In this document: positions 32,148-42,338 of the stretch, one piece after another | Layout of the letters: each line of letters begins with the position of its first letter | How positions within the stretch are numbered: position 1 is the stretch's first letter | Notes under the pieces: generated by a model | Seen by the model: the letters and a program-made list of their open reading frames with translations, nothing else | What the model was told of the DNA's origin: nothing | Databases searched by the model: none | Assembly (NCBI GenBank): GCA_019748215.1 | Contig: JAIEPV010000071.1 | Coordinates: forward strand, 1 to 43,194 | Source: Hyphomicrobium sp. | GTDB taxonomy: Bacteria; Pseudomonadota; Alphaproteobacteria; Rhizobiales; Hyphomicrobiaceae | Reading direction: 5' to 3' | DNA length: 43,194 nt | Program-made: the position numbers and the translations under genes

Positions 32148-32301
32148 GCATTGTGAGCGGCCGCAAACCAAAAGGGCCAGTGCCACGCGCCAGAACCGTC
32201 ACGGCATTTTTGAGTGCTGCCATTCTCACACTTATCCGCCGCCGGCCACGTCCGTAGCCTGACGACGTTCAATTCATCCAACACCTGAGGAGACACCCAT
32301 C

Positions 32302-32916
32302 ATGACCCAACCGAACGGGGCCGCCGCCCCACAACCCGCCGAGACCAACAGCGGCTTCTTCGTCAACACTGGCACGCACACCGGCTGGTTCACCACGCCC
32401 GATGGCGACATCTACGACATCCGCAAACTCGAACCACGTGAAGTCACTGATCCCCGCAATGGTGAAGTCACCACCATCTGGGGCGGTTACGCGACGGCAC
32501 GCGATCGCGACCTCGCCGCCCGCGATGCCATCCTGCAAGCCGAATTCAAAAAGACCGGCGTTCGTCCGGCCGAGCTGTTCGATCCGCAGGCTCGCGACAT
32601 TCCGCTCTACATCACGCTGCGCAATCGCCCCGGCAAAGGCTACAGCGACATCGGGTCGTTCTGGAATGCTCGCGGCCGCTACACCATCTTCGCCCGCGAT
32701 CTCGAAGGCAAACGTGGCCTGCGTTTCGGCGGCAATGTGCTCGCCTGGAAATCCACCGCAGCGCTCGATGCCGAACGTGCCGCCCAGACACCTGAACCCG
32801 ATGTTGCTGCACCCGATGCAGCACCAGTTTCCGCGCCCGATGGGAAAGCCGCTCGCGATGGTGCCGCCAAACGCGCCCGCAAAGGCCGCGATGACACGCC
32901 GAGCGCCGATGCCTGA
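32302..32916 (+). CDS. Hypothetical plasmid protein
   Basis: MTQPNGAAAPQPAETNSGFFVNTGTHTGWFTTPDGDIYDIRKLEP; same-strand cluster with ardC-like gene. Confidence 0.68.
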   Translation: MTQPNGAAAPQPAETNSGFFVNTGTHTGWFTTPDGDIYDIRKLEPREVTDPRNGEVTTIWGGYATARDRDLAARDAILQAEFKKTGVRPAELFDPQARDIPLYITLRNRPGKGYSDIGSFWNARGRYTIFARDLEGKRGLRFGGNVLAWKSTAALDAERAAQTPEPDVAAPDAAPVSAPDGKAARDGAAKRARKGRDDTPSADA

Positions 32917-32935
32917 TCAATTCTGACTGCCCTTG

Positions 32936-33015
32936 GGAGACGTCTGGTTTCAATACCAGGCGTCTCCTTTCGCTGCCGGGGCCCCCGTTTGGGCGAACCC
33001 CAGCAGCGAAAGGAG
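32936..33015 (+). promoter_or_regulatory. Two overlapping, mutually exclusive hairpins; the second sequesters the ardC Shine-Dalgarno
   Basis: HP-A GGAGACGTCTGGT-ttcaat-ACCAGGCGTCTCC (32936-32967); HP-B CTCCTTTCGCTGC (32964-32976) with GCAGCGAAAGGAG (33003-33015). The arms share CTCC; the HP-B right arm contains AAAGGAG before ATG 33026. Confidence 0.78.
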
Positions 33016-33025
33016 CCCACAAACC

Positions 33026-34210
33026 ATGGCCAGAAAGCCCAGAACCTACAAAACCCTACCCCGTGCCGACGGCAAGACGGCACGACATCAGGACGGCACG
33101 ACCCAACCGAAGGATGGATCTGAGACGCGCCAGAAGATCGACGTGCACGAAGCCATCACGCAAAAGATCATTGCCGCGATCCAAGCCGGAGCTGGCACCT
33201 TCGAGATGCCCTGGCACCGGCCCGGTGTCGCCTTCACCATTCCGACGAATGCATCGACCGACAAAGCCTATCGCGGATCGAACATTCTCTCGCTGTGGAT
33301 TGATGCCGACGCCAAGAAATTCGAGCATCAAGTCTGGGCCACCTACAAGCAATACGCCGAACTCGGCGCGCAGGTGCGTAAGGGCGAAAAAGGGTCCATC
33401 ATCGTCAAGTATGGCGAATGGGTCCCCAAAGAGAAGACCGGCGCGGTTGCTGGTGAGCAACCAAAGCGCCAAGGCGAAAATGATGACGACGGCAAACGTC
33501 TGTTCGCCAAGGCTGCCTGGGTGTTCAACATCGACCAAGTCGATGCGCCAGCCGCATTGCGCGAGCGATTGCTGCCAGCTTCTTCACAGCGCCCAGATCT
33601 GACGACACAGCTTGCTCATGTCGATGCGTTCATTGCTGCCACAGGTGCTGAGTTCCGCGAAGGTGGCCAACGAGCCTTCTACCGCCATCGCGATAGCCGT
33701 GGCGAAGGTGATTTTATTCAGATGCCGCCGCGCGACTTATTCACCGGCACCGCCACTTCAACGCCAACGGAAAGCTTCGAAAGTACCAGGCTTCATGAAT
33801 TGACCCATTGGGTTGGCGCAGAACACAGGCTGAATAGAAAGTTCGGCGAGCGCTTCGGCGACAAGGAATACGCCTTCGAAGAACTGGTTGCGGAATTATC
33901 TGCCGCGTTCCTTTGCGCGGAGTTGGCAATCACCAACACGCCCCGTGCCGACCATGCCCAGTATTGCGCCTCGTGGCTGGAAGTCTTGAAGGGCGATGCC
34001 AAGGCGATCTTCACCGCCGCCTCTTTGGCAACGCGCGCAGTTGCGTATCTCAATGAATTGCAGCCGGTTGCCGTGACGGCGCCGGGCGTCGATGACACCC
34101 GCGCGCACGGTGCAGAAGGTGACGCATTGGAACCCGATAGGCCGAGCAGTAACGACGCGCGCGATCGCCATGTAGCGCCCCGTTCTGCAAAAGCGGGTGG
34201 TCCACGATGA
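33026..34210 (+). CDS. ardC: ArdC-like antirestriction protein (ssDNA-binding N-terminus plus zincin-like metallopeptidase domain)
   Basis: KIDVHEAITQKIIAAIQAGAGTFEMPWHRPG, YRGSNILSLWIDA, ESTRLHELTHWVGAEHRLNR (HExxH), ELVAELSAAFLCAELAI. Confidence 0.88.
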   Translation: MARKPRTYKTLPRADGKTARHQDGTTQPKDGSETRQKIDVHEAITQKIIAAIQAGAGTFEMPWHRPGVAFTIPTNASTDKAYRGSNILSLWIDADAKKFEHQVWATYKQYAELGAQVRKGEKGSIIVKYGEWVPKEKTGAVAGEQPKRQGENDDDGKRLFAKAAWVFNIDQVDAPAALRERLLPASSQRPDLTTQLAHVDAFIAATGAEFREGGQRAFYRHRDSRGEGDFIQMPPRDLFTGTATSTPTESFESTRLHELTHWVGAEHRLNRKFGERFGDKEYAFEELVAELSAAFLCAELAITNTPRADHAQYCASWLEVLKGDAKAIFTAASLATRAVAYLNELQPVAVTAPGVDDTRAHGAEGDALEPDRPSSNDARDRHVAPRSAKAGGPR

Positions 34211-35807: not shown

Positions 35808-36962
35808 ATGCCCTACGCTGACGGTAACACCATGCCCAATGAAACATCCCCGCTTGAGGCCGATTTCGTGCAACTCGCACGTATCGCACTGTCCGGGCGC
35901 GCCCAGGACATCCAAGTGCTGCTGCATCGTGCCGCCAAGCGCTATCGTCCGGACGCACCGGCGTTCGCCGATGCTCTAGTTGCACTGGTTCGTGAGGCTC
36001 CGACACGTTCATCGCCACTGCGACGCCAGACCGAAGTGCCAATGCCGGTTGACGCCGACTCGCGCCTGCATTTGTTGCGCGTCGAGGATACTCCGCATCT
36101 TGGACACGAGCCGGTGTTCGCGGCAGGCCTCGCCAAAGCGATGAACCAATTGGTACGTGAACGGCACAGCACGACGTCACTGCGCAAGGTCGGTCTGGAA
36201 CCAACCCGTACCGTACTGTTTGTTGGCCCTCCTGGCGTCGGCAAGACCATGGCTGCGCGATGGCTCGCACGCGAACTCGGCAAGCCGTTGATCATCCTCG
36301 ACCTAGCCGCAGTTATGAGCAGCTATCTAGGCCGCACCGGCACGAACCTGCGGCACGTGCTCGAATATGCCAAGTCCCTCGATTGCGTCTTGCTGTTGGA
36401 TGAGTTGGACGCCATTGCAAAACGCCGCGACGACCGGAGCGAGGTTGGTGAATTGAAGCGGCTGGTGACCGTGCTGATCCAGCAGATCGATGATTGGCCA
36501 TCGACCGGTCTGCTCGTAGCGGCAACCAATCACTCAGAACTTCTTGATCCAGCGATCTGGCGACGCTTCGAGACCAAGGTCGAGTTCCCGATGCCCGATC
36601 AAGCGGCAATCCAAGCCTTTGCAAAGGGCATGCTGACACCAACTGCGGACGGTGGGTCGTCATGGGCAGACGTACTCGCCGTGGCTCTGCGCGGGAAGTC
36701 GTTCAGCGACGTTGAAATCCTGATCAACGGTGCCCGCCGCGCAGCCGCTGTCACCGACATTCAATTGACCGAAGCCTTGTCGGCCATCATCCAACCAGAA
36801 ACCATGAGCAAAGACGAGAGGATTGAATTGGCGACCAAACTCGTCGAGAGCAATCTTGTATCCCAGAGGCGCGCCCATGAATTGACCGGTGTATCGCGCG
36901 ACACAATACGTGGCCACGCTGAAAAGAAGCCTAAGCCGAAACGCTCTGCAGGTCGCAAATGA
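35808..36962 (+). CDS. AAA+ ATPase (operon gene 1)
   Basis: LFVGPPGVGKTMAARWLARELGKP (Walker A), CVLLLDELDAIAKRRDD (Walker B), AATNHSELLDPAIWRRFE (sensor/Arg finger); C-terminal SQRRAHELTGVSRDTIRGHAEK HTH-like. Confidence 0.93.
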   Translation: MPYADGNTMPNETSPLEADFVQLARIALSGRAQDIQVLLHRAAKRYRPDAPAFADALVALVREAPTRSSPLRRQTEVPMPVDADSRLHLLRVEDTPHLGHEPVFAAGLAKAMNQLVRERHSTTSLRKVGLEPTRTVLFVGPPGVGKTMAARWLARELGKPLIILDLAAVMSSYLGRTGTNLRHVLEYAKSLDCVLLLDELDAIAKRRDDRSEVGELKRLVTVLIQQIDDWPSTGLLVAATNHSELLDPAIWRRFETKVEFPMPDQAAIQAFAKGMLTPTADGGSSWADVLAVALRGKSFSDVEILINGARRAAAVTDIQLTEALSAIIQPETMSKDERIELATKLVESNLVSQRRAHELTGVSRDTIRGHAEKKPKPKRSAGRK

Positions 36963-39181
36963 CGAAACGAAATTTTCTCCTTGGCAAGGGCGAACGCCTC
37001 ATCTCGGATGTCCAAGGCGTGCGAGGTGGCGGTCCAAAGGAGCATCCTTACACGTTTGGGGAAGCAAAGGCGCGTTTGGAGCCGCGCCTGATCAAGGCTG
37101 TCGATGCAATTGATAAATTGCCGCCCGAAGCATGCCCGGACGACAAAGCCGTCGCCACCATCACCCTAAATCCCGAATACATCGCCAAGTCATACCACCC
37201 TGAAGGACTGTTCGAGGCCGTTGGACTTGAACCGGTCGGTAGCCGCCCGAAGCGCATTACGCCTGACAAGAGATCACGCGGAAGAGCCCCAGAAGAAACA
37301 ATCACCACAGAATTTTTCGTGATGGGTTCACGAGAGGCGTTCCGTCGATGGCAGCGTAACCTGCCAACATGGCAAGCAGACAGCCCCGGCGCCAAAGAGT
37401 TCGTATCGATTGAGGAAATCACCGCGCCAGATTTCTCTGACAAGATCAAAGGCGAACTTCCGAAGCATGGCAAGGCAACCTTCGAAGTGGTTCTTCACGC
37501 CGACGCACTGTTCGGCGAAAATCGCCTCCTGCCCTTGTTTCGCAAGTATTTGGCCGGTTTCGGCGTCAATGCCAATCTGGCCCGGCGGTTCTACGCAGGC
37601 GGACTTTGTTTCTTAGAACTCGATGCCCCGGTCGAGACCGCCGCCAAGATCGCGACCTTTACGCCCGTGCGCGTTCTTCGCCAGATGCCAAATTTGCGAA
37701 TGCTCCGACCGACAGTTAGAACTACCGGACTGCCGGCGCAACCGCTCGTCCTGCCCAAGGAACCCGCGCTCGATTCCAGCATCAAAGTGGCTATTTTTGA
37801 TGGTGGCTTGCCCGATAAGCATCCGTTGACGGCCTGGGCCAGGCCGTTCGACACGACCGGTCTCAGTACACCTGATAAGGAAGGTCTGCAGCACGGCACA
37901 CACGTCACATCAGCGTTTTTGTTCGGGCACATAGATCCAACCAAGCCACTGCCGCGCCCCTATGCTCCTGTCGACCACTATCGAGTCCTTGACAGTGCAC
38001 CGAGCCAAGATCCACACGAGCTTTACGAGGTCCTTGAGCGCATCGACAACGTGCTCTCTAACAAGAATTATGATCTGGTCAACATCAGTCTCGGTCCTCA
38101 TTTGCCGATCGAAGATGACGACGTCCATGCCTGGACAGCCGTGCTCGACGAGCGTTTCGCCCGCGGCACCACACTTGCTGGTATTGCGGTTGGAAATGAC
38201 GGAGAGGGCGACTCAAAACTGGGCCTTAATCGCATCCAAGTCCCGTCGGACGCCGTCAATGCTATGGCGATCGGCGCTTGCGATTCACCTGAAACACCAT
38301 GGCTAAGGGCTACTTACAGTTCTGTAGGGCCCGGCCGAAGTCCTGGCCTCATCAAACCGGACATCGTCGCCTTTGGCGGTTCACTACAACGACCATTCCT
38401 GGTGGTGAGCGACACAGACAAGCCAACCCTTGATACGACAGGCGGCACTTCCTTCGCCACCCCGCTTGTCCTGCGTATGGCTGCCGGCATTCGTGCTCAC
38501 ATCGGATCGAGCCTCGGCCCGCTTGCCATCCGCGCCTTACTCGTCCACTCCGCCGAGGCATCTGACCATGCTGCGGAAGAAGTCGGCCGTGGTCGACTTG
38601 CCTCCACCTTGGACGACATTCTCGTCTGCGACGACGATACGATCCGTGTTGTGTATCAAGGTGTCATCTCTCCCACTCGATACATTCGCGCACCGATACC
38701 CCTGCCCTCCACCATCATTCCAGGTAAGGTCCGGGTCGACGCAACGCTCTGCTACGCAACAGCGGTCGATCCCCACCATCCTGGAAACTACACGCGCGCA
38801 GGCCTAGAGATCGCGTTCCGTCCCCACGACGGCAAACGCACTAATCCTCAGAAAGTGCACGCCGACACGAAGAGCTTCTTTGGTTCCGCACAAGCCGGAT
38901 TGTCCGAGGACGACCTACGGCGCGATGCCTGGAAGTGGGAGAACTGCCTTCACGCATCTGTCAGCTTCATGGGCAAATCTTTGCAAAACCCGGCTTTCGA
39001 TATCCACTACAACGCCCGATTAGAAGGCCGTAACTTCGCGCCTGATCATGAACTGCCCTATGCACTCGTCGTCACGGTGCACGCCAAGAAGCTGGCCGAT
39101 CTCTATGATCAGGTCGTGCGCAAGTATGCAACACAACTTGAGCAACTGAAACCCGTCATCGATATCCCTGTTCGGGTTTAG
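36959..39181 (+). CDS. S8 subtilisin-like serine protease (operon gene 2)
   Basis: KVAIFDGGLPDKHP (Asp), GLQHGTHVTSAFLFG (His), GGTSFATPLVLRMAAGIRA (Ser); ~270-aa N-terminal extension; 4-bp overlap with gene 1. Confidence 0.93.
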   Translation: MTKRNFLLGKGERLISDVQGVRGGGPKEHPYTFGEAKARLEPRLIKAVDAIDKLPPEACPDDKAVATITLNPEYIAKSYHPEGLFEAVGLEPVGSRPKRITPDKRSRGRAPEETITTEFFVMGSREAFRRWQRNLPTWQADSPGAKEFVSIEEITAPDFSDKIKGELPKHGKATFEVVLHADALFGENRLLPLFRKYLAGFGVNANLARRFYAGGLCFLELDAPVETAAKIATFTPVRVLRQMPNLRMLRPTVRTTGLPAQPLVLPKEPALDSSIKVAIFDGGLPDKHPLTAWARPFDTTGLSTPDKEGLQHGTHVTSAFLFGHIDPTKPLPRPYAPVDHYRVLDSAPSQDPHELYEVLERIDNVLSNKNYDLVNISLGPHLPIEDDDVHAWTAVLDERFARGTTLAGIAVGNDGEGDSKLGLNRIQVPSDAVNAMAIGACDSPETPWLRATYSSVGPGRSPGLIKPDIVAFGGSLQRPFLVVSDTDKPTLDTTGGTSFATPLVLRMAAGIRAHIGSSLGPLAIRALLVHSAEASDHAAEEVGRGRLASTLDDILVCDDDTIRVVYQGVISPTRYIRAPIPLPSTIIPGKVRVDATLCYATAVDPHHPGNYTRAGLEIAFRPHDGKRTNPQKVHADTKSFFGSAQAGLSEDDLRRDAWKWENCLHASVSFMGKSLQNPAFDIHYNARLEGRNFAPDHELPYALVVTVHAKKLADLYDQVVRKYATQLEQLKPVIDIPVRV

Positions 39182-39217
39182 GAATGCCAGATCACAGCGT
39201 TGTTGCAAGGAACCCCC

Positions 39218-40924
39218 GTGGCCGTCGTCCGAAAGATTGAAATCCGCCACTTTCGTGGCATCGCAAGTCTCGACTGGTGCCCGAGCGAGGGCATGAATTG
39301 CCTTGTCGGGCCAGGAGACAGTAGCAAGACCACAATCCTTGATGCCATCGATTACTGCCTTGCGGCTCGTCGAAATCTATCATTGAGCGACGCCGATTTT
39401 CACGACCTGGATGTCAAGACGCCTGTTGAAATCTCGATCACACTTGGCCGTCTCGGCGACAGCCTGAAAAATCTTGAGGCCTACGGCTTGTATCTTCGCG
39501 GCTTCGATCCAAAGACCGGTTCCATCGACGACGAACCGGACACCGGACTAGAGACGGTGCTGACGGTAAAATTGACAGTTGAGGCGGATCACGAACCATC
39601 ATGGTCGCTGTACTCGGAGCGCGCGGCCCAACAAGATCAGGCCAGAGGACTCGCATGGGCGGATCGATCTGCTGTCAGCCCAACCAGACTTGGTGCCTAC
39701 GCCGATCATAATTTGAGTTGGGGTCGTGCATCGATCTTGAACAAGATCTCCGACGAGACGATTACCGCTACAGCGGAGCTGGCCGAACTTGCTCGCAATG
39801 CACGCGATGCCTTCGGTCAACAAGCAGAGGCCGGATTGCCGACAGCTTTGAGCATCGTGCAGGACACGGCTGGAAAACTGGGCGTTCCTGTCGGTGATGC
39901 AGTAAAAGCAATGCTGGATTCCCAGTCGGTATCATTTTCAGGTGGTACGATCTCACTTCACGATAGTGATAAAATTCCCTTGAAAAACCTGGGCCTCGGC
40001 TCGAAGCGGCTGCTCGTCGCCGGCTTGCAGCGCGCCGCTGCTGGCACGACTCCTATCGTCCTGGTCGACGAAATTGAGCACGGCCTGGAACCACACCGAA
40101 TTATCCGTCTCCTCGATGCGCTCGGCGCCAAAGAGGCAAAGCCACCACTTCAAGTTTTCATGACAACGCATTCACCTGTCGCTGTTCGGGAATTGATGGC
40201 TGCACAGATCCATCTCGTTCGATCACGCAATACGGTTCACGTTGTCCATCGCGCGAGCGATGTCGGTGATGTACAGGGAACGATCAGGCTGTTCCCCGAG
40301 GCCCTACTCGCCCGGTCTGTCATCGTATGCGAGGGCGCGACAGAGCATGGGCTTCTGCGGGGCCTCGACCAGTACCGCGTCGCAAACGGCAAGGTGTCAC
40401 TGACCGCGCGTAATGCCGCCATCGTCGACGGGGGTGGTGATAATGTATTCAAACGAGCGCGCGCGATCCAACTATTGGGCTATCGTACAGCTGTCCTCCA
40501 CGACAGCGACAAAATCCCGACGCCAGATATCAAAGCAGAATTCGAAACTTCGGGTGGCCCAACATTTTCTTGGAGCGCGGGCTGCGCATTGGAGGAGGAG
40601 CTTTTCCTTTCACTCCCCGAAAAAACTGCTCAACAGTTGCTCAACTACGCTGTGGAGCGACGAGGTGAGAAAGCAATCGATGATCAGATCCGGTCTGCGT
40701 CCAACGGTAAAATAACGCTGGCCGGATGCCGCGCCGACCTGACGCAAGAAATGCGCACGCTACTCGGAAAGGCCTCGAAGGCAAAAACAAGTGGTTGGTA
40801 CAAAACTATCTCTGACATGGAAGTCGTTGCTCGCGACATAATCGGGCCAGGCGCAAACGGCTCTGCTGCTTCGTTGACCGGCCCGATTAACGCCCTGACC
40901 AAGTGGATTGCGGATGGTGCCTGA
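39218..40924 (+). CDS. OLD-family ATPase-TOPRIM nuclease, GajA-like (operon gene 3)
   Basis: VRKIEIRHFRGIASLDW, CLVGPGDSSKTTILDAIDYCL, IVLVDEIEHGLEPHRI, TTHSPVAVREL; TOPRIM SVIVCEGATEHGLLRGL and AVLHDSDKI. Confidence 0.9.
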   Translation: MAVVRKIEIRHFRGIASLDWCPSEGMNCLVGPGDSSKTTILDAIDYCLAARRNLSLSDADFHDLDVKTPVEISITLGRLGDSLKNLEAYGLYLRGFDPKTGSIDDEPDTGLETVLTVKLTVEADHEPSWSLYSERAAQQDQARGLAWADRSAVSPTRLGAYADHNLSWGRASILNKISDETITATAELAELARNARDAFGQQAEAGLPTALSIVQDTAGKLGVPVGDAVKAMLDSQSVSFSGGTISLHDSDKIPLKNLGLGSKRLLVAGLQRAAAGTTPIVLVDEIEHGLEPHRIIRLLDALGAKEAKPPLQVFMTTHSPVAVRELMAAQIHLVRSRNTVHVVHRASDVGDVQGTIRLFPEALLARSVIVCEGATEHGLLRGLDQYRVANGKVSLTARNAAIVDGGGDNVFKRARAIQLLGYRTAVLHDSDKIPTPDIKAEFETSGGPTFSWSAGCALEEELFLSLPEKTAQQLLNYAVERRGEKAIDDQIRSASNGKITLAGCRADLTQEMRTLLGKASKAKTSGWYKTISDMEVVARDIIGPGANGSAASLTGPINALTKWIADGA

Positions 40925-42338
40925 TTCCGTCGATCTGCTGACAATCCCACGAGGGCTTGTCATTGCCCCGGCCGGATGTGGCAAGACGCAATTGATCATT
41001 GAAGCACTCAAGCGTCATGACGCCACCAAGCCCATTCTAGTACTGACACACACAAATGCTGGCGTGGCAGCGTTGCGAAGCCGGCTCGATCGAGCCAAAG
41101 TGCCCCCGGTCGCCTATCGGCTGTCAACGATTGATGGGTTCGCCATTCGACTTGTTGGGATGTTTCCCGCGTCGGCACAAATCGACCCAGCTCGCCTCAA
41201 GCTAGAGCGACCCCCCTATCGCGATATCCGAACAGCGGCATGTAACGTCCTAAAAATATCGAGCATTCACGACGTTATTCGAGCCACCTATGCACGACTG
41301 CTCGTCGATGAATATCAGGACTGCTCACAATGGCAGCACGGGATCGTGTACTATATGTCCCACGCGCTTCATACGTGCGTCCTCGGTGATCAGTTGCAAG
41401 CGATCTTTGGTTTCGGAGACGATGGCTTAGCCGATTGGCATAAGCAGGTAGGTGCACATTTTCCTGTCGTAGCTGAACTGAAAACGCCATGGCGATGGAT
41501 CAACGCCGGGGCCGACGAGCTTGGCCAATGGGTGCTTGCGGCCCGCACAAAGCTGTTGTCCGGTCAGACAATAGATTTTCGCCACGCACCAACGGCGGTC
41601 GAGTGGGTCCAACTTGACGGCTCGAACAGCGATCGGCCAAAGCAGCTCAAGGCAGGCGCAACACGATCACATACGACGGACGGTCATGTTTTGATTATCG
41701 GCGACAGTATGAGCCCGCCCAGCCAGCAGCGCCTCGCTAGTCAAATACCTGGAGCGACCGTGGTCGAAGCGGTCGACTTGAGGGACCTGGTGAACTTCGC
41801 ATCCAACCTCGATCTGAAATCGACAGACGTTGTACGCCAAGTTGCGGAATTTTCCGCCAAGCTCATGACCGGTGTTTCACCTGACGATCTATTGCGCCGA
41901 TTGGATACGATCAAAGCGGGTCGTGCCCGAAAAGAGGTTAGCGATCTGGAACGAGCAGCCCTCGCGCTGCTTGCAGAGCCGAACTACGACGGTGTCGCGT
42001 CCGTTATTGCTCAGCTCAACCAGCAAGGCGGCGTCCGCGTCCATCGACCAGCTGTGCTGCGAGCATGCATCCGCGCTCTCAACGAGTGCGCGAAGGCAGA
42101 TGGTCCGGAGTTTGCAGATGCCGCTATTCGAGCGCGTGAGCAATATCGTATGGCGGGGCGATCTCTCCCCCGTCGTGGCGTCGGAAGCACGCTTCTTCTG
42201 AAGGGGCTTGAGGCCCAAGTATGCGTTGTCGTTGAAGGCGATAAGCTGAACGCGAAGAACCTCTATGTAGCCCTGACACGCGGTTCCAATAAGTTGGTTG
42301 TGTGTTCGAAAAATCCAGTGTTGCCCGTAGTCGCATGA
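40908..42338 (+). CDS. UvrD/PcrA-like SF1 helicase, GajB-like (operon gene 4)
   Basis: LVIAPAGCGKTQLIIEAL (motif I), ILVLTHTNAGVAALRSRL, ARLLVDEYQDCSQWQ (motif II), LGDQLQAIFGF, LYVALTRGSNKLVVC (motif VI); overlaps gene 3. Confidence 0.9.
   Translation: MRMVPDSVDLLTIPRGLVIAPAGCGKTQLIIEALKRHDATKPILVLTHTNAGVAALRSRLDRAKVPPVAYRLSTIDGFAIRLVGMFPASAQIDPARLKLERPPYRDIRTAACNVLKISSIHDVIRATYARLLVDEYQDCSQWQHGIVYYMSHALHTCVLGDQLQAIFGFGDDGLADWHKQVGAHFPVVAELKTPWRWINAGADELGQWVLAARTKLLSGQTIDFRHAPTAVEWVQLDGSNSDRPKQLKAGATRSHTTDGHVLIIGDSMSPPSQQRLASQIPGATVVEAVDLRDLVNFASNLDLKSTDVVRQVAEFSAKLMTGVSPDDLLRRLDTIKAGRARKEVSDLERAALALLAEPNYDGVASVIAQLNQQGGVRVHRPAVLRACIRALNECAKADGPEFADAAIRAREQYRMAGRSLPRRGVGSTLLLKGLEAQVCVVVEGDKLNAKNLYVALTRGSNKLVVCSKNPVLPVVA

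Follow-up and report, generated by a model that had tools for sequence, protein, structure and literature searches.

Stable hairpins that hide a Shine-Dalgarno (SD) sequence on transcripts reading in from upstream are known from the e and soc genes of phage T4 and from the IS10 transposase gene, and in the T4 genes a promoter located inside the 5′ arm, or 3′ of it, yields an open transcript. Gene 0.3 of phage T7 is an anti-restriction gene with a leader that is processed by RNase III. Among conjugative elements, Frpo of the F plasmid can drive anti-defence genes of the leading region, and Frpo candidates are defined by their −35 and −10 elements, which together with UP elements lie within the fold (PMC11541004). 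The ArdC protein of plasmid R388 was found to be needed in recipients and not in donors (PMC7213743); the word 'leader' does not occur in that paper, and the passages considered describe no regulation by an RNA leader.

Here we describe a folded leader 5′ of ardC in a 43,194-nt stretch of DNA (the window), a contig of an alphaproteobacterial genome that also encodes a relaxase and a coupling protein, so that conjugation genes are present on the element. The encoded ArdC belongs to the same protein family as that of R388, with an ArdcN and a metallopeptidase domain (PMC7213743). The leader resembles those of T4 e/soc and IS10 in that the SD lies in a stable hairpin on what would be read-through RNA; unlike in T4, no promoter-like site was found between 32200 and 33200 with the sigma-70 consensus, and two abutting hairpins are conserved. 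With T7 gene 0.3 it shares a structured mRNA leader on an anti-restriction gene, in which processing could free the SD; however, there is no sequence relation between the two, and cleavage of the ardC leader is hypothetical. As with Frpo (PMC11541004), foldable DNA lies 5′ of an early anti-defence gene of a conjugative element, but −35/−10-like elements of the sigma-70 type are lacking and the fold keeps a fixed register relative to the SD. We consider it fairly probable that the leader is a conserved, cis-acting intercistronic RNA structure in an mRNA of ardC and the preceding gene, here named gene X, and that it lowers the translation of ardC.

Structure of the leader and its gene context

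The leader comprises two hairpins, HP-A and HP-B (Table 1). The initial annotation had proposed both of them, together with their common CTCC at 32964-32967 and the burial of the ardC SD by HP-B; all of these were verified in the sequence, and an inner helix was added to HP-B. Above the perfect outer stem, HP-B contains a C-A mismatch, a GGGG/CCCC helix and a small CCC/GGG top. The outer GGAG of HP-A (32936-32939) is also able to pair with the CTCC, and the overlap between the two hairpins amounts to only 4 bp. An additional outer helix, TTGGG/CCC, was found only in the minimum free energy structures of the window and of some homologues, with no support from the consensus fold.

Table 1. Features of the X-ardC locus in the window
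Feature	Position	Strand	Description
Gene X	32302..32916	+	Orphan 204-aa protein, directly 5′ of the leader at every locus found
Outer helix, 5′ strand (tentative)	32931..32935	+	TTGGG, with CCC 3′ of the SD; would close a three-way junction
HP-A	32936..32967	+	GGAGACGTCTGGT-TTCAAT-ACCAGGCGTCTCC; 13 bp including one G-U, 6-nt loop
HP-A conserved core	32940-32948 with 32955-32963	+	ACGTCTGGT/ACCAGGCGT, 9 bp
HP-B	32964..33015	+	CTCCTTTCGCTGC...GCAGCGAAAGGAG; 18-nt arms, perfect 13-bp outer stem; SD-sequestering; based on covariation and on matches to model R1
SD of ardC	33009..33015	+	AAAGGAG, wholly within the HP-B 3′ arm
ardC	33026..34210	+	394 aa; PF08401 ArdcN (E 1.3e-33), PF18818 MPTase-PolyVal (E 5.7e-46)

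The SD ends 10 nt 5′ of the ATG at 33026 and is complementary to the 3′ end of the host 16S rRNA (CCTCCTTTC). The 5′ arm of HP-B (CTCCTTTCG) is identical to the tail region of the 16S rRNA of the same genome and, judged by this identity, is an anti-SD mimic. The whole leader was predicted to fold as RNA with −55.5 kcal/mol at 37 °C (z −5.6), with none of 200 shuffled sequences as stable; as DNA, z was −4.8 for the + strand and −5.8 for the − strand (0/200 shuffles for each). HP-B is the sole 18-nt near-perfect inverted repeat of the window with arms less than 60 nt apart.

Searches of the gene X protein against Pfam, PHROG and NCBIfam gave no matches. At one homologous locus (L089, 856-1456) gene X is broken across two frames, by a frameshift or a sequencing error. 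Translational coupling of ardC to gene X was judged unlikely because 19 nt lie between the stop codon of X and HP-A, and 47 nt between this codon and HP-B. Further 3′ of ardC, an AAA ATPase gene is followed by one for an S8 peptidase (35808-39181), possibly a defence pair, since the peptidase resembles IteS, an anti-phage peptidase, although below the threshold (128.9 bits against a cut-off of 900). These are followed by genes for an OLD-like AAA/TOPRIM protein and a UvrD-like helicase (39200-42338), a layout that is Gabija-like from domain matches. Near the contig end (42475-42558) there is a 19-nt inverted repeat, 89% complementary, with 46 nt separating its arms.

Distribution and conservation

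The same two hairpins were found back to back 5′ of ardC at ten further loci, always right after gene X, and the ardC relatives that follow gene X (46–88% identity) possess both of them. Based on tblastn and genome searches, gene X precedes every leader at 63–87% identity. The homologues come from Hyphomicrobiaceae and from one contig labelled Betaproteobacteria. The paired arms, whose absence from homologous ardC leaders the initial annotation had named as a refutation, are thus present in such leaders, which holds within the X-linked ardC lineage. A covariance model built from HP-B (R1) matched 10 loci in 8 of the 103 family genomes, and gene X, with at least 70% identity in this search, was detected at the same loci (10/10). 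Some ardC was present in 47 of these 103 genomes, and the copies outside the X block gave no match to R1; the leader therefore belongs to the X-ardC block of one mobile-element lineage. As far as these matches indicate, it is a feature of that block and not of ardC generally.

In wider samples, of 385 genomes from the class and 399 from the phylum, R1 matched only the genome of the window. In the order sample, there was one weak extra match in another family (L177, 1501-1553), with neither gene X nor ardC nearby. No matches to the leader were found in plasmid DNA. Among viral contigs, the ArdC protein had two distant relatives, both without the leader, and the hairpin pattern gave eight chance-like matches, none of them with gene X or ardC. 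A search of the window against Rfam 15 at the gathering cut-off returned no families, and the window locus together with ten ardC homologue loci, at E values up to 1, returned two sub-threshold microRNA models only. The leader structure is genuine and conserved, and apparently uncatalogued, being absent from Rfam.

Covariation of the two stems

As the consensus fold (A1) misaligned HP-A, a hand-made alignment (A3) was used, consisting of ten distinct sequences, which represent few lineages and mostly one family, with the loops swapped for a constant spacer. In A3, 96.3% of cells were paired, and the covariation score was 0.315, compared with 0.107 in shuffled alignments (0/500 as good); slid versions scored no higher than 0.091. 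The covariation across homologous leaders that the initial annotation had suggested looking for was present: double changes that kept pairing occurred at 6 of the 18 pairs of HP-B and at 7 of the 9 pairs of HP-A, the latter count being biased upward since the 5′ arms of HP-A were placed by complementarity, a bias from which the HP-B counts are free. In a MAFFT alignment of HP-B alone (8 sequences), six of the seven variable pairs were double-changed and no shuffle equalled the covariation score.

The 18-nt arms of HP-B are separated by a variable centre of 14–17 nt, and the SD lies in the 3′ arm in identical register in every copy. The outer seven pairs (CTCCTTT/AAAGGAG), fixed by the SD, are invariant across the sequences, and the opposite arm is fixed likewise. 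At locus L027 the inner stem is wholly replaced and the outer seven pairs are kept, and this persistence even in L027 implies that the anti-SD arm is itself conserved. Wobble pairs carry a strand signal: the A3 table contains 15 G-U cells on the + strand and six C-A cells, which correspond to G-T wobbles on the − strand. This favours the mRNA sense, and the sequence evidence leans, not decisively, towards a structure acting on that strand rather than on the − strand.

Predicted sequestration of the Shine-Dalgarno sequence

The accessibility of the SD was compared with that in 195 control genes, taken from the window and from two related genomes (400 kb). An uninterrupted SD-containing stem of 13–19 bp was found in all eight homologues tested; the longest such stem among the controls was 11 bp, and none of the 195 had one of 12 bp or more. 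The ardC SD thus lies inside a stable and conserved intramolecular stem, the arrangement of SD-sequestering cis-regulatory leaders. Freeing AAGGAG was predicted to cost 5.2 kcal/mol in the window and, on average, 3.8 kcal/mol in the controls; the predicted cost of opening the region from −20 to +13 was 18.3 kcal/mol, a value matched or surpassed by 38 of the 195 controls. Since both costs are high among the controls but still within their range, we claim that the structure lowers translation and not that it shuts it off. Because HP-A competes, the predicted unpaired fraction of the SD core GGAG in the window is approximately 40%.

Compared with controls, ardC leaders in a set that included five X-linked ones had a less exposed SD (unpaired 0.25 vs 0.37, p 1e-4), and in other ardC lineages, with the X-linked leaders excluded, the SD opening cost was also above that of controls (p 3e-6). 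Several further leader types were noted. One recurrent hairpin, roughly CTTCGTCCGGCATCGAGCCCGC...GCGGGC...ACGAAGGAG, has the SD in its 3′ arm (L018-L024, L033, L052, L054, L065), another type, GTGACGGG...CCCGTCGCGGAG, has it at the hairpin end (L114, L120, L121, L128, L131), and a conserved ACTGAGATCAGCGCTGA hairpin (L028, L035, L037, L067, L070) sits 3′ of an A+T-rich, promoter-like stretch.

Proposed mechanism and alternative readings

In the mechanism that we propose, gene X and ardC would be co-transcribed and the pairing would operate in the mRNA. HP-A would fold first, HP-B would then fold directly against it, and the 5′ arm of HP-B, which reproduces the anti-SD tail of the 16S rRNA, would pair with the very strong SD of ardC. 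This pairing would reduce ardC translation, so that read-through X-ardC transcripts would be poorly translated. Most likely this throttle is permanent and does not switch in response to a ligand; a trans factor, e.g. RNase III cutting the stem, or a protein, might conceivably relieve it. A version in which the abutting hairpins silence ardC while the element is resident, and open just after transfer through RNase III, a protein or a signal of fresh entry, we regard as rather unlikely.

The initial annotation had seen in the leader a translational switch with mutually exclusive hairpins, in which HP-A, extended through the CTCC, frees the SD, HP-B closes it, and the balance between them responds to a signal. 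The partition function for the window gives the two states similar weights (0.55 vs 0.43), and three sequences carry GGAGACG and others GGGACG, which are able to pair with CTC(C). However, in 12 of 40 cells the 4-bp extension by which HP-A competes is unpaired, and it has no compensatory change, which is hardly possible there as its CTCC partner is invariant. The predicted share of the CTCC held by HP-A was 0.43 in the window, 0.33 in L005, 0.31 in L013 and at most 0.02 in the other five, so that competition should matter in 3 of 8 homologues, and the toggle is limited to 4 bp, with the inner SD bases paired in either state. The 9-bp core of HP-A ends exactly at the base before the CTCC, from which it follows that both stems form together; the core abuts HP-B in every sequence and the stems can stack. 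Neither a ligand-binding core nor an Rfam match was recognised. In the model, the window does therefore come close to balance, but this property is not conserved, and mutual exclusivity gives way to compatible, abutting stems: of the proposed switch, the SD-burying leader structure with its compensatory changes is supported, and conservation of a second pairing that would free the SD is not. The switch is weakly supported overall and not supported as a general mechanism, and we consider it unlikely. The perfect 13-bp SD helix and the predicted stability of the leader at 37 °C tend to argue against an RNA thermometer of the ROSE or fourU type, in which an imperfect, marginally stable SD helix melts at physiological temperature.

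The hairpins could instead mainly protect or define the 3′ end of the X mRNA, as a barrier or processing site, the overlap with the SD being secondary. The leader does track gene X without exception, and at locus L027 the identity is 68% for X and only 46% for ardC; however, every copy has a 5′ arm that still complements the SD, ardC lies downstream wherever the contig continues, and no terminator signature is present at the leader, so that this reading appears doubtful. An intrinsic terminator or attenuator was rejected, with no G+C-rich hairpin followed by a T run on the + strand near the leader. The Frpo-like single-strand promoter that the initial annotation had offered as an alternative, or else a priming site, formed by DNA at conjugal entry, would agree with the strong folding of both DNA strands, with the conjugation genes and with the roles of Frpo and R388 ArdC outlined above. 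Against it, no −35/−10-like pair within the fold or elsewhere in 32200-33200 was found on either strand (sigma-70 consensus only), G-U wobbles exceed C-A cells, and a role in DNA would not require every copy to place its SD within the 3′ arm; we hold it to be very unlikely. Inverted repeats with symmetric changes are compatible with a double-stranded operator bound by a dimeric repressor as well, but operators conserve sequence rather than pairing, and here there are G-U pairs on one strand, the arms flank a centre of variable length and the inner stem of L027 was replaced with pairing kept, which renders an operator most improbable.

Implications for ardC regulation

A recipient needs anti-restriction genes when the element enters, and later they may become a cost; a covarying leader that hides the SD of ardC points to an RNA layer of control. 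With R1, a covariance model is available for an element that Rfam does not contain, and there is a hint that unrelated ardC leaders also bury the SD, each in its own form. If silencing in the resident element and opening after transfer were true, the X-ardC leader would be a regulated RNA element that times anti-restriction at the RNA level.
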